DNA of 20,898 nt from positions 1 to 20,898 of the IMG/VR virus record IMGVR_UViG_3300027734_000363, one strand, 5' to 3'. Under the pieces are notes generated by a model. That model had not been told where the DNA came from and made no database searches. It saw only the letters and a list, made by a program, of their open reading frames with translations. The position numbers and the translations under genes were made by a program. Shown piece after piece: positions 6,787 through 20,193 of this stretch (within the stretch, counting starts at the first letter, position 1; each line of letters begins with the position of its first letter). The DNA is from a virus.

Positions 6787-7695
6787 ATGGCAATTTCACG
6801 CGCACAACTATTGAAAGAGCTGCTCCCCGGCCTGAACGCTTTGTTTGGTCTGGAATACGCTAAATACGGCGAAGAGCACAAAGAGATCTACGAAACCGAA
6901 ACTTCGGAGCGTAGTTTTGAAGAGGAAACCAAGCTGTCCGGATTCTCCGCCGCTCCGGTGAAGAACGAGGGCGCTGCCATTGCTTATGACAATGCGCAGG
7001 AAGCATGGACTGCTCGATACAACCACGAAACCATTGCTTTGGGCTTCAGCTTGACTGAAGAGGCTATCGAAGACAACTTGTATGACTCGTTGTCCGCTCG
7101 TTACACCAAAGCCTTGGCTCGCGCTATGGCATACACCAAGCAAGTAAAAGCTGCTTCCGTTTTGAATAACGGTTTCAACAGCGGTTACGTTGGTGGTGAC
7201 GGCGTTCCGTTGTTCTCGTCAGCACATCCTTTGATCTCTGGTGGCACCAACAGCAACATCCCATCTACCCCTGCCGACTTGAATGAAACATCGTTGGAAA
7301 ACGCTGTGATTCAGATCAGCTTGTGGACTGATGAGCGTGGCTTGTTGATCGCTGCTAAGCCTAACAAGCTGGTGGTTCCTCCCGCTTTACAGTTCACGGC
7401 AACTCGTTTGCTGGAAACTGAATTGCGTGTGTCTACTGCTGACAACGACATCAACGCATTGAAGAACAATGGTTCTATCCCCGGCGGATACACCATTAAT
7501 CACTTCTTGACCGATACAAACGCTTGGTTCCTGACCACAGACGTTCCAAACGGCATGAAGCATTTCGTGCGTACCCCGTTGCAACAGTCAATGGACGGTG
7601 ATTTTGACACCGGCAACGTCCGTTACAAGTCTCGTGAGCGTTACAGCTTCGGCTGGTCTGACCCTCTGGGCATGTACGGTTCCGCTGGAGCCTAA
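6787..7695 (+). CDS. Major capsid protein (Mu gpT-like, HK97 fold)
   Basis: Predicted main shell subunit, 302 aa. The N-terminus MAISRAQLLKELLPGLNALFG is followed by a stretch with Y-x-ETETSERSFEEETKLSG, probably the E-loop region. Then come YNHETIALGFSLTEEAIEDNLYD, a helical spine, GVPLFSSAHPL, and a C-terminal part with KPNKLVVPP and RERYSFGWSDPLGMYGSAG. This pattern matches Mu gpT-type major head proteins as I remember them. There is no obvious protease-cleaved N-terminal scaffold domain, consistent with a separate scaffold gene. It lies 11 bp after the previous gene, with a GGAG ribosome site, and is followed at once by a strong terminator. Codons are regular and GC-richer at third positions, which fits high expression. 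Confidence 0.85.
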   Translation: MAISRAQLLKELLPGLNALFGLEYAKYGEEHKEIYETETSERSFEEETKLSGFSAAPVKNEGAAIAYDNAQEAWTARYNHETIALGFSLTEEAIEDNLYDSLSARYTKALARAMAYTKQVKAASVLNNGFNSGYVGGDGVPLFSSAHPLISGGTNSNIPSTPADLNETSLENAVIQISLWTDERGLLIAAKPNKLVVPPALQFTATRLLETELRVSTADNDINALKNNGSIPGGYTINHFLTDTNAWFLTTDVPNGMKHFVRTPLQQSMDGDFDTGNVRYKSRERYSFGWSDPLGMYGSAGA

Positions 7696-8404: not shown

Positions 8405-8698
8405 ATGATGCAATATGACGTAAAAAGTGCGCACCTTAGCGCGGCTGGCTCTTACTACGCAGGTCGAACACGGCTAAAGGGTATTGTTGTATCCCCAAAA
8501 ATAAGCACGTCGGTAACATTTGAAATCCGAGACGGTAGCGCCACAGCCGCCGTTCTCTACACGATGGACTTAGCTGGCAACAGTAATCCAAACACGTTTT
8601 ATGTCATAGTCCCCGGTGAAGGTATTTTGGCTAATACAGGTTTGTATTTAACGTTTAGTGCGGGTTCCGTAACTGGAATTACGGTGTTCTATGGCTAA
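8405..8698 (+). CDS. Small beta-rich virion protein
   Basis: A 97-aa protein. An in-frame TTG at 8399 would extend it by two residues, but AGGAG (8393-8397) lies 7 nt before ATG 8405, so that start is chosen; ATG 8408 is also possible. The protein reads as alternating strands: QYDVKSAHLSAAGSYYAGRTRLKG, then VTFEIRDGS, a PGEGILANTGLYLTF segment and a final VTGITVFYG. I recall proteins of about 100 residues with this RTRLKG...PGEGI...FYG pattern next to capsid genes in uncultured phages. It is probably a minor head or spike component. The last 8 nt overlap the next gene. Confidence 0.7.
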   Translation: MMQYDVKSAHLSAAGSYYAGRTRLKGIVVSPKISTSVTFEIRDGSATAAVLYTMDLAGNSNPNTFYVIVPGEGILANTGLYLTFSAGSVTGITVFYG

Positions 8699-8945
8699 GA
8701 GTCCAGCATGGACTCGCAAAGAAGGCAAGAACCCCAAAGGCGGCTTGAACGCCAAGGGACGTGCGTCCTACAATGCAGCGAATCCGGGGAAACCGGGGCT
8801 AAAGAGGCCTCAACCCGAGGGCGGCAGCAGGCGAGACTCTTTCTGCGCAAGGATGACTGGGCACAAGAAGAAAAACACAAGCCCAGAAGTGGCCAGAGAT
8901 CCAAATTCCCGAATCAATAAATCCCTAAGAGCGTGGAACTGCTGA
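8691..8945 (+). CDS. Small basic protein, DUF6321-like
   Basis: An 84-aa basic protein starting 8 nt inside the previous gene. Clear motifs are WTRKEGKNPKGGLNAKGRASY (7-27), ANPGKPGLKRPQP (30-42), RRDSFCARMTGHKKK (47-61) and DPNSRINKSLRAWNC at the C-terminus. I recall this set of motifs from a widespread phage family of unknown function (DUF6321 from memory). There is no membrane segment. The high Lys/Arg content and the Cys in SFCARM suggest nucleic-acid contact, which is inference. It opens the cluster of small Lys/Gly-rich proteins. Confidence 0.8.
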   Translation: MAKSPAWTRKEGKNPKGGLNAKGRASYNAANPGKPGLKRPQPEGGSRRDSFCARMTGHKKKNTSPEVARDPNSRINKSLRAWNC

Positions 8946-8946
8946 T

Positions 8947-9159
8947 ATGAAACCCGAAACCGTTGACATAGTGAAACAAGTTGGTGATGGCCTGTCGTTT
9001 ATCACGGCTGTAGCCACGATCACCAATATGTTGCCCTCTATTGCCGCCCTGTTTACGATCATTTGGACAGGTATGCGGATTGCCGAAATGATTACAGGCA
9101 AAGAATTTTCTGTGCTGATTGGTTGGAAAAAGGTGTCCAAAGATGCCCAGCACAAGTAA
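8947..9159 (+). CDS. Small membrane protein, holin-like
   Basis: A 70-aa protein with a charged N-terminus (KPETVDIVKQVGDG), a hydrophobic stretch over about residues 16-45 broken by a Pro (two short or one long membrane helix), and a basic C-terminus. Size and topology fit phage holins, which make holes in the inner membrane for lysis. No endolysin is adjacent, so another membrane function is possible. It starts one base after the preceding stop and overlaps the next gene by 17 nt. Confidence 0.5.
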   Translation: MKPETVDIVKQVGDGLSFITAVATITNMLPSIAALFTIIWTGMRIAEMITGKEFSVLIGWKKVSKDAQHK

Positions 9160-9685
9160 AAAACAACATGATTTCATGGAGGCTGTGGCGCATAGTCCAG
9201 CTTTTGCGAAGAAGGTGGGTGTCCCACAGTCCGTGGGCAAGGATTTTTCCAACGCGGACAAGGGCCGCAAATTTTCAAAAGGCGGTGATACTATGGCTAC
9301 AGCAAAAAAAGTTGCTCCTTCTCCAATGGGCAAACCAGTAATGAAACCCGGCATGAGCACGGCTAAGGACGGCATGAAGAAGCCAACTCCTATGGCCAAA
9401 ACCGCTATGGCCGGTAGCATGATGGGTATGAAAAAAGGCGGCATGGCCAAGTACATGTCGTTTACCGATACGGGCAAGCCTGCGGGCATGAAAAAAGTTC
9501 AAAAAATGGCTTCTGGCGGCATGGCAGCTTCCTCGATGGGCAAAGTTCGTACTGCCGCCCCCAGCCGTGATGGCGTTGCAACCAAGGGTAAAACCAAAGG
9601 TATGCAAGTCAAGATGGCCGGATCCGGTGTGCCTAACGGCATCGGTTCCCGTGTGATGAAAAAAGGCGGAATGGCCAAGTGTTAA
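9143..9685 (+). CDS. Met/Lys/Gly-rich protein with two MKKGG motifs, possible fusion
   Basis: The frame opens at 9119, but ATG 9143 is chosen: AAGGTG lies 9 nt upstream and MPSTSKKQHDFMEAVAHSP is the N-terminus I recall for this family. The product is 180 aa. Residues 1-48 form a small domain (FAKKVGVPQSVGKDF, ending KFSKGG). Residues 51-180 are low complexity, rich in M, K, G and A, with MKKGGMAK at 96-103 and 172-179 and a DGVATKGKTKG motif at 143-153. Met 51 (ATG 9293) has its own AAGGCGG-type site, so a shorter nested product of 130 aa is possible. The two halves look like separate genes joined in frame. The function is unknown; similar low-complexity proteins sit near heads and adaptors in other uncultured phages. 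Confidence 0.7.
   Translation: MPSTSKKQHDFMEAVAHSPAFAKKVGVPQSVGKDFSNADKGRKFSKGGDTMATAKKVAPSPMGKPVMKPGMSTAKDGMKKPTPMAKTAMAGSMMGMKKGGMAKYMSFTDTGKPAGMKKVQKMASGGMAASSMGKVRTAAPSRDGVATKGKTKGMQVKMAGSGVPNGIGSRVMKKGGMAKC
9428..9452 (+). repeat. MKKGGMAK-coding repeat, copy 1
   Basis: Twenty-five bases coding MKKGGMAK plus one base. They match 9656-9680 with a single mismatch, and the core AAAAAAGGCGG recurs exactly at 9659, 10797 and 12537. The repeat is within one gene, so an internal duplication is likely. Confidence 0.8.
9656..9680 (+). repeat. MKKGGMAK-coding repeat, copy 2
   Basis: Second copy of the 25-base repeat, with one mismatch to 9428-9452. It forms the C-terminal end of the same protein, followed by Cys and the stop codon. 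Confidence 0.8.
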
Positions 9686-9700
9686 TTTAAGGAGAACGAC

Positions 9701-10207
9701 ATGGCATTAAATCCAATGAATCGCAAGCTGGATAGAAAAGGCAATCCGATTGTTTCAAAGGCAGAGCTTGAAGACTTCAAGAGTAAGTATGGCCAAAACA
9801 TGGAGTTGCGCGACTTTCTAAACAAAGAACGTGGTTTAACTCGCCGTGGCAGTGCGGGAACAAAAGCACCCGTGTCCGTGTCTGAAGAACGTTCTCTCAC
9901 AATTGACAGCCCTGACACTGCAACCGCAAAAGAAGTTGCTTCCCTCATGCCTTCCCCAGCTAAGCCAGCAGATAGATCACGTGAAGTAACTGCAAGAGAA
10001 TTAGCAGAGAACTTTAACCCCACACCATCAACCATGCCAAGAAGTCGCGGTATGTCTTCTTCTAGTGCTGAAGATAAAAGTGAGTTCATGCCCGGTGGTA
10101 TGAAAAAAGGTGGTATGACTGCTTCCAAGCGTGGTGATGGCTGCGCCGTTAAGGGCAAAACTCGTGGAACTATGGTCACTATGAAAGGCGGCGGTTACGC
10201 CCGTTAA
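9701..10207 (+). CDS. KKGG/KGKT-motif protein of unknown function
   Basis: A 168-aa protein with a good ribosome site (AAGGAG). The N-terminal 45 residues are charged and helical (RKLDRKGNPIVSKAELEDFK). The middle, about 50-125, is Ser/Thr/Pro/Glu-rich and probably disordered. The C-terminus carries GGMKKGG (132-138), DGCAVKGKTRG (146-156) and MKGGGYAR. The end thus repeats the motif order of the preceding protein (MKKGG plus DG-x-A-x-KGKT), which points to shared ancestry of the C-terminal module. No enzyme motif, signal peptide or membrane segment is seen. The function is unknown. Confidence 0.75.
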   Translation: MALNPMNRKLDRKGNPIVSKAELEDFKSKYGQNMELRDFLNKERGLTRRGSAGTKAPVSVSEERSLTIDSPDTATAKEVASLMPSPAKPADRSREVTARELAENFNPTPSTMPRSRGMSSSSAEDKSEFMPGGMKKGGMTASKRGDGCAVKGKTRGTMVTMKGGGYAR

Positions 10208-10210
10208 ATT

Positions 10211-10486
10211 ATGATGGCATCCCGTGGTATGGGCGCAATCCGCGCCAGCAAAATGCCGAGCGGGGCTAGAAAGCCTCGTCGGGATGACACTGATTTCACC
10301 CAGTACAAAGAGGGTGGCAAGGTTAATGCTGCTGGTAACTACACCAAACCCAGTCTGCGCAAGCGGATTGTGTCGCAGGTAAAGGCAGCGGCAACTCACG
10401 GCACCGGTGCAGGGCAATGGTCGGCACGTAAGGCACAGCTTGTTGCCAAGAGGTATAAGGCGGCTGGCGGGGGCTATCGAGATTGA
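10211..10486 (+). CDS. Small basic protein with GQWSARKAQL module
   Basis: A 91-aa basic protein starting 3 nt after the previous stop (ATG 10211 or 10214; no strong ribosome site). It has a disordered basic N-terminus, YKEGGKVN (32-39) related to the KKGG motifs of its neighbours, then NYTKPSLRKRIVSQVKAA (43-60) and GQWSARKAQLVAKRYKAAGG (68-87). I remember the last module, in which a conserved W is followed by a basic helix and GGGY, as common in uncultured phages, with unknown function. DNA or RNA binding is plausible from charge only. Its stop overlaps the next start in a TTGA. Confidence 0.75.
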   Translation: MMASRGMGAIRASKMPSGARKPRRDDTDFTQYKEGGKVNAAGNYTKPSLRKRIVSQVKAAATHGTGAGQWSARKAQLVAKRYKAAGGGYRD

Positions 10487-10716
10487 AGGCACCTCAAAAA
10501 TCCTTAAAGGATTGGGGTGACCAGAAATGGAGAACCAAGAGTGGAAAGCCGTCTAGTAAAACAGGTGAGCGATATCTTCCAGAAGCTGCGATCAAAAGTC
10601 TCAGCCCTGCTGAGTACGCTGCAACGACCAAAGCCAAGCGGGCAGGAAAAGCTGCCGGAAAACAATTCGTAGCCCAACCCAAAACGATAGCAAAGAAAAC
10701 AGCGAGGTTCCGATAA
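10483..10716 (+). CDS. Small basic protein, KSLKDW...KWRTKSGKPS family
   Basis: A 77-aa protein of strongly basic composition, with KSLKDWGDQKWRTKSGKPSS (6-25), GERYLPEAAIKSLSPAEYAA (28-47) and a Lys/Ala-rich tail ending KKTARFR. The only fitting start is TTG 10483, which overlaps the upstream stop codon (TTGA), so stop-start coupling is likely. I recall the KWRTKSGKPS motif from many uncultured phage proteins, all without a known role. Its stop codon shares one base with the next ATG (TAATG). A nucleic-acid-binding role is suggested only by charge. Confidence 0.75.
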   Translation: MKAPQKSLKDWGDQKWRTKSGKPSSKTGERYLPEAAIKSLSPAEYAATTKAKRAGKAAGKQFVAQPKTIAKKTARFR

Positions 10717-10982
10717 TGGCAAAGTTTCCTGATTTAACGGGTGATGGCAAAGTTACCCAAGCGGACATCCTTAAAGGTCGTGGCGTAGAAACCATGAAAA
10801 AAGGCGGTTCTGCTAAAAATTGGATTCAAGATGCAATTAAAAAGCCCGGTGCTTTGAAGAAGCAGCTTAAGATCAATCCGAAGAATCCTATTCCTCCAAA
10901 AAAGTTGGCTAATGCCGCTAAAGCTCCCGGCAAACTGGGCCAACGTGCTCGTCTGGCGCAAACGCTTAAGAAAATGAAGTAA
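10716..10982 (+). CDS. EF-hand-like loop plus basic helical module
   Basis: An 88-aa protein in TAATG overlap with the gene before it. Residues 6-17 read DLTGDGKVTQAD, which satisfies the EF-hand/dockerin calcium loop: D6, T8, D10, G11, V13, T14 and D17 at positions 1, 3, 5, 6, 8, 9 and 12. MKKGGS (27-32) follows, using the same AAAAAAGGCGG bases as the neighbours. Then comes NWIQDAIKKPGALKKQL (35-51) and a basic end with KAPGKLGQRARLAQTLKKM. The second half is a module I recall from phage proteins of unknown function. Calcium binding is inferred from the motif; a single loop may bind only weakly or after dimerising. Confidence 0.75.
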   Translation: MAKFPDLTGDGKVTQADILKGRGVETMKKGGSAKNWIQDAIKKPGALKKQLKINPKNPIPPKKLANAAKAPGKLGQRARLAQTLKKMK

Positions 10983-10984
10983 TC

Positions 10985-11917
10985 ATGGCATCGACCACCG
11001 GAACCTCAGTCTTTAATCTCGACATGAACGACCTCATTGAGGAGGCGTTTGAGCGTTGCGGTCAGGAGTTGCGTACAGGCTATAACTTTCGCACGGCCCG
11101 CAGGTCTTTAAACATCCTGACCATCGAGTGGGCAAATCGGGGTATCAACTTTTGGACGGTTGAGCAGGGGCAGATTCCCATGGTGACTGGGCAAGCCATC
11201 TATCCAGTGCCCGTAGATACGATTGATTTGTTAGACACTGTGATCCGTCAGAACAACGGTACAAGCAATCAGATTGATATCAACATCAGCCGGATTGCAG
11301 AGCCTACCTATATGAGCTTGCCAAACAAATTAGCTCAGGGGCGTCCTATTCAAGTTTGGTTCAACCGTCAATCTGGGCAAGAAAACCTGAGCACAGCCAC
11401 ATTGGCTGCAACCATTTCCAGTACTGCCACGACCATCACCGTTTCGTCTGTGGCCAATCTGACGACTGCCGGTTTTATCAAAATTGGTAGCGAAACCATC
11501 AGCTACCCTAACGTAGACCCTGTAAACAACCAGTTGCTTAATTGCGCTCGCGGGCAAAACAACACAACGGCAGCCGCGCACACTTCGGGTGCGGCTATCA
11601 CGGTTCAGAACCTTCCGGCCATCAACGTCTGGCCAACGCCCAACGCACCGGGTGACCAGTACATGTTTGTGTACTACCGTATGCGGCGTATTCAGGATGC
11701 TGGCTCCGGCGTGACGGTTCAAGATATCCCATTCCGCTTTATCCCTTGTATGGTGGCTGGGCTGGCTTATCAGTTGAGCACCAAGTTGCCCAATGTGGAT
11801 CAGCAGCGGGTTATCGGATTAAAAATGGAATATGAGCAGCAGTGGGATTTGGCCGCTGCGGAAGACCGAGATACATCTCCTTTGCGGTTTGTGCCAAGGA
11901 ACATGTTCTATGCCTAA
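10985..11917 (+). CDS. Head-tail adaptor-like protein with inserted beta domain
   Basis: A 310-aa protein. Residues 11-60 are helical (NDLIEEAFERCGQELRTGYN, then RRSLNILTIEWANRGINFWT), as in adaptor or tail-tubular-A-type proteins that seal the portal ring. Residues 205-310 return to that core (NVWPTPNAPGD, YRMRRIQDAGSG, IPFRFIPCMVAGLAY, ending with RFVPRNMF). Between about 134 and 209 sits a separate module, with TTITVSSVANL, GFIKIGSETISY and CARGQNNTTAAAHTSGAA, which I recall as a mobile beta unit in many phage structural proteins. Relatives as I remember them lack it at this site. It starts 2 nt after the upstream stop, and its last 8 nt overlap the zinc-ribbon gene. Confidence 0.75.
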   Translation: MASTTGTSVFNLDMNDLIEEAFERCGQELRTGYNFRTARRSLNILTIEWANRGINFWTVEQGQIPMVTGQAIYPVPVDTIDLLDTVIRQNNGTSNQIDINISRIAEPTYMSLPNKLAQGRPIQVWFNRQSGQENLSTATLAATISSTATTITVSSVANLTTAGFIKIGSETISYPNVDPVNNQLLNCARGQNNTTAAAHTSGAAITVQNLPAINVWPTPNAPGDQYMFVYYRMRRIQDAGSGVTVQDIPFRFIPCMVAGLAYQLSTKLPNVDQQRVIGLKMEYEQQWDLAAAEDRDTSPLRFVPRNMFYA

Positions 11918-12338
11918 TCGTTTTGCGTCAGGCAAACATGCGATTGCGGAATGTGATAGGTGTGCTGGGCGTTACATGCTTAAGGAGTTGCGCACTCAGA
12001 CGGTTAAGACAAGACCTTTCAAAATTAAAGTTTGTCGTGCGTGTTGGGATCCAGATCATCCACAGTTGCAGTTGGGCATGTACCCAGTTAACGATCCGCA
12101 AGCTGTGCGTGAGCCACGTCCTGATGTGAGCTACCAAGTTTCGGGCCAGAACGGGTTGCAGATTTTGTTGACTAATAGTGTGTCCCCAGATGGCTTTGGT
12201 TACCCAGAAGCAGGTAGCAGGATCTTTCAGTGGGGGTGGAACCCGGTTGGCGGAGCTAGGAATTTTGATACTGATCTAACGCCAAATAACTTGGTTCTAG
12301 CTGTAGAACTTGGTACAGTAACGGTAAGCGTAACTTAG
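11910..12338 (+). CDS. Zinc-ribbon structural-locus protein
   Basis: The frame opens at 11832, but ATG 11910 is preferred: AAGGA lies 9 nt upstream and ATGCCTAA gives the usual 8-nt overlap with the adaptor gene. The product is 142 aa. Residues 15-45 hold CDRC (15-18) and CRAC (42-45), a two-knuckle zinc-ribbon pattern, followed by WDPDHPQLQL. The C-terminal half (about 75-142) is beta-rich with SPDGFGYPEAGSRIFQWGWN. I recall the C-x2-C...C-x2-CWD-x-x-HP pattern from uncultured phage genomes, again beside adaptor genes. Its function is unknown; it may contact DNA or stabilise a virion interface. Zinc binding is inferred. Confidence 0.75.
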   Translation: MPNRFASGKHAIAECDRCAGRYMLKELRTQTVKTRPFKIKVCRACWDPDHPQLQLGMYPVNDPQAVREPRPDVSYQVSGQNGLQILLTNSVSPDGFGYPEAGSRIFQWGWNPVGGARNFDTDLTPNNLVLAVELGTVTVSVT

Positions 12339-12347
12339 GAGTCTAAT

Positions 12348-12551
12348 ATGGACAAAATGGATTTAAAACAGGACAAGAAAATGATTGCTGGTGCCGTGCA
12401 TAAGCACGAAAAACACATGCATCCCGGCAAGCCTATGACTAAGCTGGCTAAAGGCGGCAAGACCAACTTGCAAATGAAGCAGTTGGGTCGTGGTTTGGCT
12501 AAGGTTGCCAATCAGAAGAAGTCTTCTTTCACCTACAAAAAAGGCGGTTGA
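12348..12551 (+). CDS. Small Lys/His/Met-rich protein ending in KKGG
   Basis: A 67-aa basic protein with AGGAG 6 nt before the ATG. It contains DLKQDKKMIAGAVHKHEKHM (5-24), LAKGGKTNLQMKQLGRGL (33-50), and ends with YKKGG at the stop. The four His in the first 25 residues could bind metal, though without a recognised motif. The KKGG codons (AAAAAAGGCGG, 12537-12547) also form the ribosome site of the next gene, whose ATG follows the stop by one base. Function unknown. Confidence 0.75.
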   Translation: MDKMDLKQDKKMIAGAVHKHEKHMHPGKPMTKLAKGGKTNLQMKQLGRGLAKVANQKKSSFTYKKGG

Positions 12552-12552
12552 T

Positions 12553-12891
12553 ATGGCTAAATTCAGTCAAAAAGTTATGGGCAAAGAAGTTGGTAATGCC
12601 AGCGTTTATGCCAAACCACACAACAACCCAGTAAAGCCCGGTCGCCCCGTGCCTGCTGGTGAGACATTGGTTGCTACACGTGTAAATGGCCCCCAGCCCT
12701 CTACAGCCGGTGGTGTGGACATCAAGAACAGCGGCTATGACGGTGGCAACCGCATGAAGGCCAACGATGTCAATATGTCTGTTGGAAACATCAGCCGCGA
12801 TGACTATCCCGCTCCTAAAACCTCCGGCATTAAAATCCGTGGTACTGGCGCAGCCACTAAAGGCGTAATGGCTCGGGGGCCGATGGCGTGA
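12553..12891 (+). CDS. KG-motif protein ending GAATKGVMARGPMA
   Basis: The frame is open from 12490, but ATG 12553 is chosen because AAGG lies 9 nt upstream and the earlier codons lie inside the previous gene. The product is 112 aa, low complexity, rich in G, N, P and K, probably mostly disordered. The C-terminus has SGIKIRGTGAATKGVMARGP (91-110), which echoes the DGVATKGKTKG and DGCAVKGKTRG motifs of the 9143 and 9701 proteins. I recall this C-terminal signature from many uncultured phages, often just before an adaptor gene as here. The stop overlaps the next start (GTGA). Function unknown. Confidence 0.75.
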   Translation: MAKFSQKVMGKEVGNASVYAKPHNNPVKPGRPVPAGETLVATRVNGPQPSTAGGVDIKNSGYDGGNRMKANDVNMSVGNISRDDYPAPKTSGIKIRGTGAATKGVMARGPMA

Positions 12892-13571
12892 ACTATACGC
12901 AGCTTGTAGCCGCTATAACTGATTACACCCAAAATCAGTTTGATACCACCTCGATAAATACAATTATCGCGCAGGCGGAACAGCGCATCTACAACTCGGT
13001 TCAGTTCCCTTCGTTGCGTAAAAACGTGACGGGTAGCGTCACCTCTGTAAACAAATATTTGTCTTGCCCAGAAGACTTTTTGTCTACTTACTCTTTGGCA
13101 GTCATTGACGCCAGTGGCAACTACGAATATTTGTTGAACAAGGATGTGAACTTCATCCGGCAGTCTTACCCTAACCCGACCACAGACGTTGGCATCCCTA
13201 AGTACTACGCCCTGTTCGGCCCGACAGTCAACACCAGCACAATCACCAACGAGTTGTCGTTCATTGTTGGCCCAACGCCCGATGCCTCCTATTCTGTGGA
13301 GTTGCACTATTACTACTATCCAACTTCAATCACTACAGCTAGTACTACGTGGCTGGGGGATAACTTTGATACCGTCCTCTTGTATGGTTCTCTGGTTGAA
13401 GCGTACACCTACATGAAGGGCGAACAAGATTTAATTGTTTTGTACGATACCAAGTACAAAGAAGCACTGGCCTTGGCTAAGCGTTTGGGTGATGGACTTG
13501 AGCGCAGCGATGCGTATCGCAGTGGCCAGTACCGTGAAGCGCCTCTACCTCAAAATTCGGGGGTTAGATAA
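12888..13571 (+). CDS. Phage adaptor protein (second head-tail connector)
   Basis: A 227-aa protein starting at GTG 12888, which overlaps the upstream stop (GTGA); the N-terminus MNYTQLVAAITDYTQNQF fits the family with this start. It continues with IIAQAEQRIYNSVQFPSLRK (26-45), SCPEDFLSTYSLAVID (59-74), FIRQSYPNPTTDVGIPKYYA (89-108), FIVGPTPD and WLGDNFDTVLLYGSLVEAY. I recall this pattern as a phage adaptor family of the kind found under the portal in podoviruses (SU10 adaptor-like, from memory). It would form a ring between portal and tail. The adaptor-type protein at 10985 suggests two stacked connector rings. Confidence 0.8.
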   Translation: MNYTQLVAAITDYTQNQFDTTSINTIIAQAEQRIYNSVQFPSLRKNVTGSVTSVNKYLSCPEDFLSTYSLAVIDASGNYEYLLNKDVNFIRQSYPNPTTDVGIPKYYALFGPTVNTSTITNELSFIVGPTPDASYSVELHYYYYPTSITTASTTWLGDNFDTVLLYGSLVEAYTYMKGEQDLIVLYDTKYKEALALAKRLGDGLERSDAYRSGQYREAPLPQNSGVR

Positions 13572-17312: not shown

Positions 17313-18968
17313 ATGCCACGTTTATCCAAAATTGGTGCAGCGTCACTAGCCGCCTTTGGGTGGACAGGTGGCGTTTCTCCTGTAACTGCTAGTTACCTTG
17401 TGGTGGCTGGTGGTGCGGGTGGCGGTGCAGACGGCGGCGGCGGTGGCGGTGCAGGTGGATTGCTTGCATCTTCAACCTCTCTAAACCCCGCGCTTTCATA
17501 CGTGGTAACCGTTGGAGCTGGTGGCGTTGGCGGTGTATATCCCAACGTATCGGTTGCGACCCAAGGATCAACCTCATCATTTGGAAGCATTGCGTCCACA
17601 ACTGGTGGTGGTTACGGCGGCGGAAATTCGGGCACTTTAGCTGGCGGTAATGGCGGCTCAGGTGGGGGTGGTCGTGGTAACGGCTCTAACGCTGGTGGTA
17701 CTGGTGTTTCTGGTCAAGGTAATGCTGGCGGCGCTGGTGTTGGTGGCGCTGCTGCTGGTGGCGGCGGTGGATCAAGTGCGGCTGGAGGCTCTGGAAGTGC
17801 AAACGGTAATGCTGGTGGCGCTGGTACAGCATCTTCAATTAGCGGTACATCAACCTATTATGCTGGCGGCGGCGGTGGTGGTAACCCCGGTCTTGGTAGC
17901 GGCGCTGGTGGCGCTGGTGGTAGCGGCGGCGGAGGCTCTGGTAATGCTGAACCCGGTGGTGCTGGAACTGCAAACACAGGCGGTGGCGGTGGTGGAGAAA
18001 CAGGTTCTGCTACTGGCACACGCGCTGGTGGCAACGGCGGTTCGGGAGTTGTAATAATTTCTTATGCTGGCTCACAACAATTTGGAGGTGGCGTAGTCAC
18101 ATCAAGCGGTGGTAACACTATTCATACATTTGTTACATCAGGCTCGCTTGCTCCTATTGCATCTTTTTCAGTAAACTATTTAATCGTTGCTGGTGGTGGT
18201 GGTGCGGGTAATCACGGAGGCGGTGGTGCGGGTGGTTTGCTATCGGGTTCAAGTTTAATTATTAACAATTCAACGTATCTTGTTACCGTTGGCGCTGGTG
18301 GTGCTGGTATTGCCCAGCAAACAACACTTAGTAGCGGTACAAACGGTGGCAATTCTGTATTTTCATCAATAACTTCTACTGGTGGCGGTGGTGGTGGTTC
18401 ATACGGAGGAAATGGATTAAGTGGCGGTTCTGGAGGCGGTTCTGGTTCAAATGATGGCGGAACTTTAACTGGTGGCACAGGAGTTACTGGTCAAGGTTTT
18501 GCTGGTGGTGGAACAAGTTTTGCTGCTGGCGGTTCTGGTGGCGGTGGTGCAAGTGCAGTTGGTTCTGCTGGAACTGGCTCAGAACGAAATGGCGTTGGTG
18601 GAGATGGTGGCAATGGCACAGCATCATCTATAAGTGGCTCAAGCGTAACTTATGCAGGTGGCGGTGGCGGTGGTGGTGGTGATAACCGCACAAGCGGAAC
18701 TGCTGGTACTGGTGGTTCAGGTGGCGGTGGAAATGGAAACAACGGAAGACCCGGAACCGGAAGCAACGGAACTACAAACCTTGGCGGCGGTGGTGGCGGT
18801 GGTTCATCAACAACTGGCTCAAACTACGGCGGTGGCGGATCAGGCGGATCAGGCGTAGTCATCATTTCTTACGCTGGCGCACAAAAATTTACTGGTGGAA
18901 CAGTTACATCAAGTGGCGGCAATACTATCCACACATTTACGTCTAGTGGGTATTTAAATTCACTTTAA
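17313..18968 (+). CDS. Glycine-rich adhesin-like fibre protein, duplicated domain
   Basis: A 551-aa protein in which Gly is by far the most common residue. After about 26 residues come two copies of the same domain (about 27-283 and 284-551). Each copy opens with YL(V/I)VAGG, runs through GGGGAGGLL and YxVTVGAGG, then a long Gly-rich array broken by ASSISGxSxxYAGGGGGG, and ends with GSGVVIISYAG-x-Q, VTSSGGNTIHTF and a terminal SG-x-L. Polyglycine arrays in phage adhesins (the gp38-type of Salmonella phage S16) form polyglycine type II helix packs, so a receptor-binding adhesin is a reasonable inference. It lies between a fibre and small fibre-locus genes, with an AAGGA site. Opposite-strand and frame-shifted open frames here are by-products of GGN codons. 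Confidence 0.75.
   Translation: MPRLSKIGAASLAAFGWTGGVSPVTASYLVVAGGAGGGADGGGGGGAGGLLASSTSLNPALSYVVTVGAGGVGGVYPNVSVATQGSTSSFGSIASTTGGGYGGGNSGTLAGGNGGSGGGGRGNGSNAGGTGVSGQGNAGGAGVGGAAAGGGGGSSAAGGSGSANGNAGGAGTASSISGTSTYYAGGGGGGNPGLGSGAGGAGGSGGGGSGNAEPGGAGTANTGGGGGGETGSATGTRAGGNGGSGVVIISYAGSQQFGGGVVTSSGGNTIHTFVTSGSLAPIASFSVNYLIVAGGGGAGNHGGGGAGGLLSGSSLIINNSTYLVTVGAGGAGIAQQTTLSSGTNGGNSVFSSITSTGGGGGGSYGGNGLSGGSGGGSGSNDGGTLTGGTGVTGQGFAGGGTSFAAGGSGGGGASAVGSAGTGSERNGVGGDGGNGTASSISGSSVTYAGGGGGGGGDNRTSGTAGTGGSGGGGNGNNGRPGTGSNGTTNLGGGGGGGSSTTGSNYGGGGSGGSGVVIISYAGAQKFTGGTVTSSGGNTIHTFTSSGYLNSL
17391..18960 (+). repeat. Duplicated Gly-rich domain (two direct copies)
   Basis: Two direct copies, about 17391-18161 and 18162-18960, share the order of conserved blocks listed for the gene. 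The last block (GVVIISYAG and TSSGGNTIHTF) is nearly identical, while the array between differs in length and detail. This fits an old in-frame duplication with later change of the variable array. Confidence 0.7.
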
Positions 18969-19323: not shown

Positions 19324-20193
19324 ATGTTTGGAATATCGGCTTTTGCCCAATCCCCTTTTGCTGCATTAGGCACAACTGGGATTTTTCTGTCCATCTCTGA
19401 GGACATAGGCTTAGCCGATTCCAGCATTCAATCGCAGACTCTGCTCAACTCCATCATCGAGAATATCGGGGTTGCGGACGTTGAGAATGACGTAGGTGGT
19501 AATTTTTTTGGCAGCGTTACAGAGGCAATCACGCTGAACGACTCCAGCACACAAGCATCTACCTTCCTGCAATCCATCACTGAAAATTTGCTGCCAGCGG
19601 ATATCCCAGTCATCTCTGCTCAGTTTGCTGTGAGCCGTGCCGAAGCCATAACAATGGCGGATAGCCAAGCGGTCTTTGTGGCCTTGCTCAATAGTAGAGC
19701 AGAGCCGTTTACTCTAGACGACTCCAGCACCCAGTCTTCTGCTTTCGTACAAGACATAGCAGAAAACGTCAATCTTGCTGATGCCCAAACCATGACGGCG
19801 CAGTTTGCTGTGGCTATTTCAGAAGCCATAACGCTGGAAGACGTTGAATCTATTGCGGCTCAGTTTGCGGCCAGCATCACTGAGAACATAGGCGTAGCTG
19901 ATGTAATTGATATTTTTAATGCATTCTTTGCGGACATTACCGAAAACTTTGGTGCAGCGGATAGCTTTACGGCGGCTCTAAATGTCTACCTGACAATCAT
20001 AGAAAACATCAACCCTGCGGATGTACCTTCAATTCAAGCCGCCTTCGTAGCCGCCATTGCCGAGAACATCAATATGGCAGACAATACGCAAGTGTCAGGT
20101 TGGATCAAGATTATTGATGACCAGACTGCCAACTGGACGTTAGTAAACACAACGAATTCCGCAGGCTGGCAGACAATCAACAACCTACAGTAA
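19324..20193 (+). CDS. Virion protein made of twelve 20-residue repeats
   Basis: A 289-aa acidic protein starting 3 nt after the previous stop with no obvious Shine-Dalgarno, so translation is probably coupled. Residues 1-20 (MFGISAFAQSPFAALG...) resemble N-termini of phage virion proteins I recall. Residues 21-258 are twelve tandem units of consensus SITENI-x-LAD followed by about ten variable residues ending in a Phe/Ala-rich patch. Glu at position 4 and Asp at position 10 are present in every unit. The C-terminus (WIKIIDDQTANWTLVN, then W-x-x-INNL) has Trp repeats typical of fibre tips or attachment pieces. Repeat proteins of this kind near fibres have no known role to me. A rod or spacer with metal or surface contacts is a guess. 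Confidence 0.7.
   Translation: MFGISAFAQSPFAALGTTGIFLSISEDIGLADSSIQSQTLLNSIIENIGVADVENDVGGNFFGSVTEAITLNDSSTQASTFLQSITENLLPADIPVISAQFAVSRAEAITMADSQAVFVALLNSRAEPFTLDDSSTQSSAFVQDIAENVNLADAQTMTAQFAVAISEAITLEDVESIAAQFAASITENIGVADVIDIFNAFFADITENFGAADSFTAALNVYLTIIENINPADVPSIQAAFVAAIAENINMADNTQVSGWIKIIDDQTANWTLVNTTNSAGWQTINNLQ
19384..20097 (+). repeat. Tandem 60-bp coding repeat, 12 units
   Basis: Eleven full units of 20 codons (one of 21) and a shortened twelfth. DNA identity between units is low, but Glu-4 and Asp-10 are invariant and Ala-9 frequent. Units 3-5 and 6-8 match each other better than their neighbours, giving a 180-bp higher-order period. Confidence 0.85.

Follow-up and report, generated by a model that had tools for sequence, protein, structure and literature searches.

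Genes between the major capsid and second adaptor genes

The 20,898-bp virus record IMGVR_UViG_3300027734_000363, the whole of which is referred to here as the window, derives from a podovirus-like phage and encodes TerL, a portal, a GroES-like protein, a scaffold-like protein, a major capsid protein (MCP) of the Mu gpT type, and two SU10-type adaptors. Between the MCP gene and the second adaptor gene lies a group of small basic genes, several of whose products share short motifs. Our analysis revealed that these motifs belong to a single portable peptide, which is located mostly at the C-terminus of otherwise unrelated small proteins and is referred to below as the tag.

The original prediction, made from the letters of the window, had described eight small basic genes around the first adaptor gene, with KKGG in four of their products and G-x-A-x-KG in three. 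All eight open reading frames (ORFs) are present, and their products have isoelectric points (pI) of 10.0-11.1 and net charges of +9 to +27. KKGG occurs five times in four proteins (twice in g9143 and also in g9701, g10716, and g12348), whereas 0.25 occurrences were expected by shuffling the same proteins and five were reached in none of 5000 shuffles. Likewise, G-x-A-x-KG is found in g9143, g9701, and g12553 (three observed versus 0.19 expected; P = 0.0006), and neither motif is present in the other 20 window genes tested. The intergenic gaps range from -17 to +15 nt, which is consistent with co-translation of the cluster, as had been proposed. The description nevertheless requires amendment. 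A ninth ORF (8947-9159) between the first two genes had been missed, and the products of g8691, g10211, and g10483, which are members of widespread phage families, carry neither motif. In addition, KKGG and G-x-A-x-KG, both of which are real, are not separate motifs but together make up a single bipartite peptide, of which each forms one half.

A bipartite peptide tag with a preferred C-terminal position

The two halves were recognized as parts of a single peptide from the consensus of 435 C-terminal copies, which reads [FYM]K[KAS]GG[SKM]-x(~6)-SAS[KS]RADG[IC]A-x-[RK]GKT[RK]G[KR][MIF][VC]-COOH and is about 25 amino acids (aa) long. About 11 residues separate the conserved GG from the tag core, which follows it; the distance from the GG to the D of the tag is 14 residues or less in about 97% of the 435 copies, with a mode of 11. 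The invariant residues include D, G, G, and T. In the window, the tag is present in an extended, subterminal form in g9143 and g9701 and as a divergent terminal variant in g12553, the pattern of which is matched by 188 of 216 relatives of this protein.

A regular expression for the tag core, applied to the 36,857 ORFs of 374 loci, yielded 738 matches, compared with none after within-ORF residue shuffling and two in reversed ORFs; the motif is thus not a matter of composition. In as many as 403 of the 738, exactly three residues separate the match from the stop codon. Because some loci had been obtained with a pattern that included the stop codon, this analysis was repeated on the loci fetched with the MCP only, in which 48 of 87 matches are located at precisely three residues from the stop. 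The core was also found subterminally and at N-termini. All abundance counts for the tag are lower bounds.

The tag as such was not found as a described entity in Pfam, PHROGs, NCBIfam, or the openly licensed papers searched. The tag alone did not match any PHROG, and a literature search with the motif strings returned no relevant paper. A tblastn search of cultured phages with the 26-aa consensus also gave no match, even though the cultured phage MinM2 bears the tag, because a query of this length is too short.

Portability of the tag and turnover of the tagged bodies

The portions of the tagged proteins outside the tag (hereafter, bodies) are highly diverse. Clustering of these often low-complexity sequences by BLAST (E < 1e-5) grouped 367 unique bodies into 140 clusters, and the addition of two scans without the stop-codon requirement raised the numbers to at least 776 C-terminally tagged bodies in at least 196 clusters. 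When representatives of the 140 clusters were aligned, invariant columns were confined to the tag, and 82 further representatives reproduced the tag consensus. The bodies have a median length of 103 aa, a median pI of 9.6, and a net charge of about -1 to +20 (5th-95th percentile); a charge-hydropathy plot classes 118 of 140 as disordered, and 10% contain a hydrophobic stretch (19-mer with a value of 1.2 or more). Pfam, PHROGs, and NCBIfam assigned no known function to the bodies, in which there are essentially no domains that can be recognized.

The tag is also joined to members of recognizable families. In 26 of 270 DUF6321 relatives, the protein extends beyond its native C-terminus with the tag (...RAWNC-ADGGYIKSADGIAQRGKTKGKIC). 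Among the g12348 relatives, the core is N-terminal in 27 and C-terminal in one, and one g10716-type C-terminus is fused to the tag. The g9143 family represents the tag joined to a phrog_16759 domain (E = 1.9e-20; residues 1-56 of g9143 aligned to positions 1-56 of the 58-position profile), with the remainder of the protein lying outside this family. In 54 relatives of g9143, the GG, the GKT, and the terminal Cys are near-invariant, and the structure model contains three confident helices (residues 6-38), the rest, including the tag, being of low confidence. PHIKZ165.1 of the jumbo phage phiKZ (58 aa) has the domain without the tag and shares 74% identity with residues 1-43 of g9143. As for g9701, close whole-body relatives exist in only a few loci (10 loci matched, 4 of them by the tag alone). 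A single homologous family with a diverging N-terminus was considered and rejected as an explanation, since the bodies do not align and the tag is also carried by DUF6321, g12348, and phrog_16759 proteins.

The bodies are replaced rapidly. The median best-pair identity between loci is 0.25 for the bodies, which is the background level, compared with 0.68 for the tags, 0.85 for the MCP, and 0.82 for g10483. Even among 60 locus pairs whose MCPs are at least 93% identical, 42 have no related tagged body in common.

Selection on the peptide

For identical tag residues within one locus, the codons differ in 53% of cases; the comparison of different loci gives 60%, and codon-usage equilibrium would give about 65%. 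This scrambling of synonymous codons between copies in one genome indicates that selection acts on the peptide, and it rules out a recent DNA repeat as the origin of the tag. Tags of the same genome agree with each other above shuffles at positions +2, +5, +12, and the last residue, even in DNA-diverged pairs, with no excess over shuffles at +9 and +11. Such agreement would fit a binding partner that is specific to the genome, with common descent or gene conversion as further possible contributors.

Distribution of the tag in one capsid clade

In loci obtained with the MCP and the cluster proteins as queries, the gene order around the tagged genes is recurrent, with little variation: MCP, decoration-like genes, DUF6321, (holin-like gene), g9143, variable genes, g10211, g10483, (g10716), adaptor 1, g11916, g12348, g12553, and adaptor 2. 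Of 113 loci that span the MCP to adaptor 2, 108 contain DUF6321, 101 contain g9143, 104 contain g10211, 103 contain g12348, and 98 contain g12553. The cluster genes are therefore syntenic within the clade and not scattered. At least one tag is carried by 108 of these 113 spans (range 0-5, mean 2.16) and by 23 of 26 spans in the MCP-fetched subset, and no ORF containing the motif was found outside the span in the 113 loci. Similarly, of 26 long contigs (31-87 kb), 24 contain the core DNA pattern, in one to five copies that lie on one strand and, when there is more than one, within a few kilobases of each other; the reversed pattern is absent from all 26. Three clade members that are seemingly untagged (loci L199, L225, and L227) carry variants missed by the regular expression.

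Among the 450 tagged loci listed, 442 bear the core structural genes of the lineage; the remaining eight, none longer than 3.2 kb, are fragments that carry neighbouring genes of the cluster. When bacterial and archaeal genomes totalling 257 Gb were scanned, eight places were identified, and genuine tags were found in four of them (L375, L378, L379, and L380), all in metagenome-assembled bins. One of these, an 83.8-kb contig of a Chitinophagales metagenome-assembled genome (L375, JAGYJT010000012.1), carries two tags and was binned with a Bacteroidota genome; it is either phage sequence placed in the wrong bin or a hint as to the host.

In the MCP tree, all of the tagged phages, including the cultured MinM2, whose tagged protein is WEV89192, fall into one clade with a support of 100/100. 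HTVC023P, HTVC027P, 023Pt, DSL-LC04, CRP-902, QDWS535, ct2G2228, and GB2A are located outside this clade and lack the tag, and the untagged sisters of the clade include marine phages. The tag-bearing clade consists mostly of uncultured, freshwater-type tailed phages, where 'freshwater' rests on the cultured relatives, not on contig metadata. The closest cultured relatives of the window by MCP are MinM2, Pag-Yong1, and Pra-JY27 (74% identity), followed by DSL-LC04 and HTVC023P (64%). The first three (OQ594354, OL906435, and PP438419) were reported from three different cyanobacterial hosts, yet each is 65,014 bp in length and gave identical match scores, and they are probably the same phage. The DUF6321 gene of this phage is annotated as 'RecA-like recombination protein', an apparent misannotation.

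An untagged layer of widespread small basic proteins

The eight genes had been viewed as a single system, which our results do not bear out. Rather, they form two layers, because DUF6321, phrog_17747, and phrog_14910 are widespread and untagged elsewhere. The product of g8691 matches DUF6321 (PF19846) with 62.8 bits against a gathering cut-off of 28.5 (E = 4.7e-17), and g10483 matches phrog_14910 over nearly its full length (residues 1-77 on positions 3-79 of the 80-position profile). In marine phages, these three families are found near lysis genes and lack the tag; Lederberg and HTVC033P have all three together at such a position, and phrog_17747 and phrog_14910 are present in HMO-2011-type phages. 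In cyanomyophages, a longer Lys-rich protein, the gene of which lies near gp16/gp17, has DUF6321 as its C-terminal domain. Four cluster genes are thus members of, or contain a domain of, the DUF6321, phrog_14910, phrog_17747, and phrog_16759 families, but these families, found in cyanomyophages, HMO-2011-type pelagiphages, and phiKZ, are mostly untagged and are not defined by the tag.

In the cyanomyophages ACG-2014f, S-B43, and S-SM1 (L256, L389, and L390), the Lys-rich composite proteins that end in DUF6321 also hold modules resembling small genes of HTVC023P (KWFNEKW.. and YPSAYAN..). Such composites suggest that the small basic proteins work together. Searches by sequence for solved structures found no relatives of DUF6321, g9143, the tagged proteins, the MCP, or adaptor 2 (one chance match, E = 0.39), and a fold search with the DUF6321 and g9143 models gave nothing significant, with weak helix-turn-helix-like matches (E = 5-10) that are not interpretable.

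Other features of the region

The positions of the features are listed in Table 1.

Table 1. Features of the MCP-to-adaptor 2 region of the window (gene starts were not curated)
Feature	Position	Strand	Remark
MCP, Mu gpT-like	6787..7695	+	defines the tag-bearing clade
g8691, DUF6321 (PF19846) small basic protein	8691..8945	+	Pfam match
Small hydrophobic holin-like ORF	8947..9159	+	assigned from sequence features, without a family match
g9143: N-terminal three-helix domain (phrog_16759/phiKZ PHIKZ165.1-like), disordered middle, C-proximal tag, KKGGMAKC end	9143..9685	+	
Bipartite tag of g9143, subterminal form: ASGGM ... DGVATKGKTKG	9509..9601	+	
g9701: variable, largely disordered body with C-terminal tag	9701..10207	+	
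Tag of g9701: KKGGMTASKRGDGCAVKGKTRG, then extension TMVTMKGGGYAR-COOH	10103..10204	+	
g10211, phrog_17747-like small basic protein	10211..10486	+	E = 6.3e-23
g10483, phrog_14910 small basic protein, TTG start	10483..10716	+	E = 2e-37
g10716: EF-hand-like loop DLTGDGKVTQAD (10731-10766), MKKGG (10794-10808), basic phrog_20603-like C-terminus	10716..10982	+	
SU10-type adaptor 1	10985..11917	+	PF24175, 28.2 bits versus cut-off of 27
g12348, small basic protein with YKKGG-COOH end in the window	12348..12551	+	
g12553: variable N-terminal part, conserved C-terminus	12553..12891	+	
C-terminal tag variant of g12553: RGTGAATKGVMARGPMA-COOH	12838..12888	+	pattern shared by relatives (see text)
SU10-type adaptor 2	12888..13571	+	PF24175, 81.6 bits

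The EF-hand-like loop near MKKGG in g10716 is not isolated; 22 such loops were found in the loci versus one in shuffled ORFs, and 21 of them precede GG. Gp53 of HTVC023P contains a canonical EF-hand loop followed by KKPGG. The slot behind DUF6321 is occupied by differing small membrane proteins (8947-9159 in the window, 14091-14339 in L005, and 12629-12880 in L225), which are holin-like or consist of a coiled coil plus a transmembrane segment. The gene between the adaptors (11916-12338) encodes CxxC pairs (CDRC...CRAC), the first of which is lost in marine relatives (ISDRSG); the pairs suggest that the product binds zinc. Farther downstream, the window encodes a 551-aa tail fibre-like protein with 38% glycine (17313-18968) and a 289-aa acidic repeat protein with ITEN-x-x-x-AD repeats (19324-20193).

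Possible functions of the tag

The terminal peptide is constant, the bodies are swappable, the tagged genes lie among those for the head, and the tag is restricted to one capsid clade. Taken together, these features suggest that the tag is an address label read by a structural protein of the clade. We consider the chances about even that it serves as a cargo-loading signal by which hypervariable proteins, either internal or ejected, are targeted to the virion. In such a mechanism, the tag would bind a structural protein of this capsid lineage (the scaffold, the portal, or the capsid interior) during prohead assembly and in this way bring into the head small proteins that are for the most part disordered and basic; these would be ejected with the DNA and then meet host-specific targets, possibly in host takeover or counter-defence. 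The bodies would be exchangeable cargo behind a constant recognition peptide. The predicted disorder of most bodies would suit passage through the portal, and tags within a genome would be expected to agree if the partner differed from genome to genome. With somewhat less confidence, we propose that the clade may have evolved a universal protein-sorting tag that makes any protein a virion passenger, with the cargo being swapped and the loading machinery kept constant.

Several results weigh against the cargo-loading interpretation. No recognizable effector or enzyme domain was detected in 222 tagged representatives by searches of Pfam, PHROGs, and NCBIfam; no virion proteomics of a tag-bearing phage was found in the openly licensed papers searched; and, unlike in T4, no protease or cleavage site was identified for the tag. 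The clustering of the bodies is approximate, as many of them are of low complexity. Furthermore, the virion proteome of S-SM1 has been measured (PMC3037559), but SSM1_115, the protein of this phage that contains DUF6321, still has the annotation of a hypothetical and not of a structural protein, which implies that DUF6321 need not be a virion protein.

Among the shared roles that had been suggested, a protein-tagging or assembly signal is favoured, because the tag is portable on 196 body clusters, is selected at the protein level, and is confined to the head-to-neck span of one MCP clade. Condensation of packaged DNA, in which the proteins would be basic core proteins and the Lys/Arg/Gly-rich tag a DNA-binding tail, appears unlikely as the common function. 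It accords with the high median pI of the bodies, with the basic nature of all eight window proteins, and with the binding of T4 internal proteins to DNA at low salt (PMC9026906), but the conserved element is a specific peptide with invariant residues, not charge, and neutral or acidic bodies also occur. Moreover, the copy number varies from zero to five, and the tag is missing from sister phages with similar capsids. An equally improbable option is that the tag works in the infected cell, either by docking to a host factor (nucleoid, ribosome, or membrane) or as a C-terminal degron. The basic stretch followed by two hydrophobic C-terminal residues is reminiscent of ClpX C-motif signals, a minority of the bodies have a hydrophobic stretch, and the untagged families lie near lysis genes in other phages; however, the tag follows one structural-gene clade with all copies inside the head-to-neck gene block, and its subterminal and N-terminal occurrences are not expected for a C-degron.

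Anchoring of variable proteins outside the particle, on the capsid surface, the neck, or the adaptor region, as decoration or environment-binding tethers, is, in our estimation, slightly less probable still. The genes flank both adaptors and come after decoration-like genes, disordered bodies fit surface tethers, and g10716 has its EF-hand-like loop beside KKGG. On the other hand, the bodies are not beta-rich but basic and disordered, and none of the 222 tagged representatives contains an adhesin, Ig-like, or carbohydrate-binding domain. The remaining explanations are very improbable. GIAQRGKT and GVATKGKT literally match the Walker A pattern GxxxxGK[ST], and the tag might accordingly be read as a nucleotide- or phosphate-binding mini P-loop, but the peptide is predicted to be disordered and ends three residues short of the C-terminus, without the strand-loop-helix context, GRT replaces GKT in the MinM2 tag, and the g12553 variant has no GKT. 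Still more improbable is that there is no real feature, only compositional bias or a translated DNA repeat. The proteins are indeed Lys/Gly rich and the motif is repeated within genomes, but the loss of all matches upon residue shuffling, the fixed distance to the stop codon, and the nearly randomized synonymous sites between same-genome copies all argue against it.

Comparison with known targeting peptides

The internal proteins of T4 are small, basic, and poorly conserved among relatives and have a common N-terminal capsid targeting sequence (CTS) (PMC9026906). The CTS is sufficient for loading foreign proteins into the head, the internal proteins are ejected with the DNA, and one of them, IPI, inhibits a restriction enzyme (PMC9026906; PMC7411985). 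The tag resembles the CTS of IPI/II/III and Alt in being a short terminal peptide common to small, basic, fast-diverging proteins encoded among head genes; 196 body clusters share it, and invariant columns were limited to the tag in the alignment of 140 representatives. In contrast, the CTS is an N-terminal propeptide of 10-19 aa that is removed by gp21, whereas the tag is mostly C-terminal, about 25 aa long, and rich in Lys, Arg, and Gly, and it occurs on far more body types in zero to five copies per genome. We know of no sequence likeness between the two.

The cargo-loading peptide (CLP) of encapsulin systems is short, usually C-terminal and sometimes N-terminal, and is recognized by a co-encoded HK97-fold shell (PMC7355545). 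Like the CLP, the tag is a short terminal peptide on unrelated proteins, and the tagged genes lie beside a shell gene, the HK97 fold of which is suggested by the Mu gpT membership of the MCP. The CLP, however, belongs to a bacterial compartment with folded enzymes as cargo, and its roughly 10 aa bind a hydrophobic pocket, which differs from a basic, Gly-rich phage peptide.

The C-terminal coat-binding segment of the P22 scaffold is also basic and can direct fused cargo into procapsids. It differs in being a helical part of a single scaffold protein and not a naturally shared tag. By analogy, the tag may be functionally similar to the T4 CTS while being C-terminal and unrelated; we do not claim that it belongs to a family with the CTS or the CLP.

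Conclusions

In this study, we found that several of the small genes between the MCP and second adaptor genes of a podovirus-like phage carry a portable bipartite peptide tag on rapidly exchanged bodies. Should the tag prove to be a loading signal, sequence alone would be enough to recognize hundreds of candidates for hypervariable cargo in abundant uncultured phages. These proteins would then constitute a catalogue in which new host-takeover or anti-defence proteins may be sought, and the tag could be used as a short C-terminal handle by which proteins of choice are packaged into phage heads. A further implication would be that the T4 strategy of combining a constant address with a variable payload has been reached independently by small podovirus-like phages of another capsid lineage.

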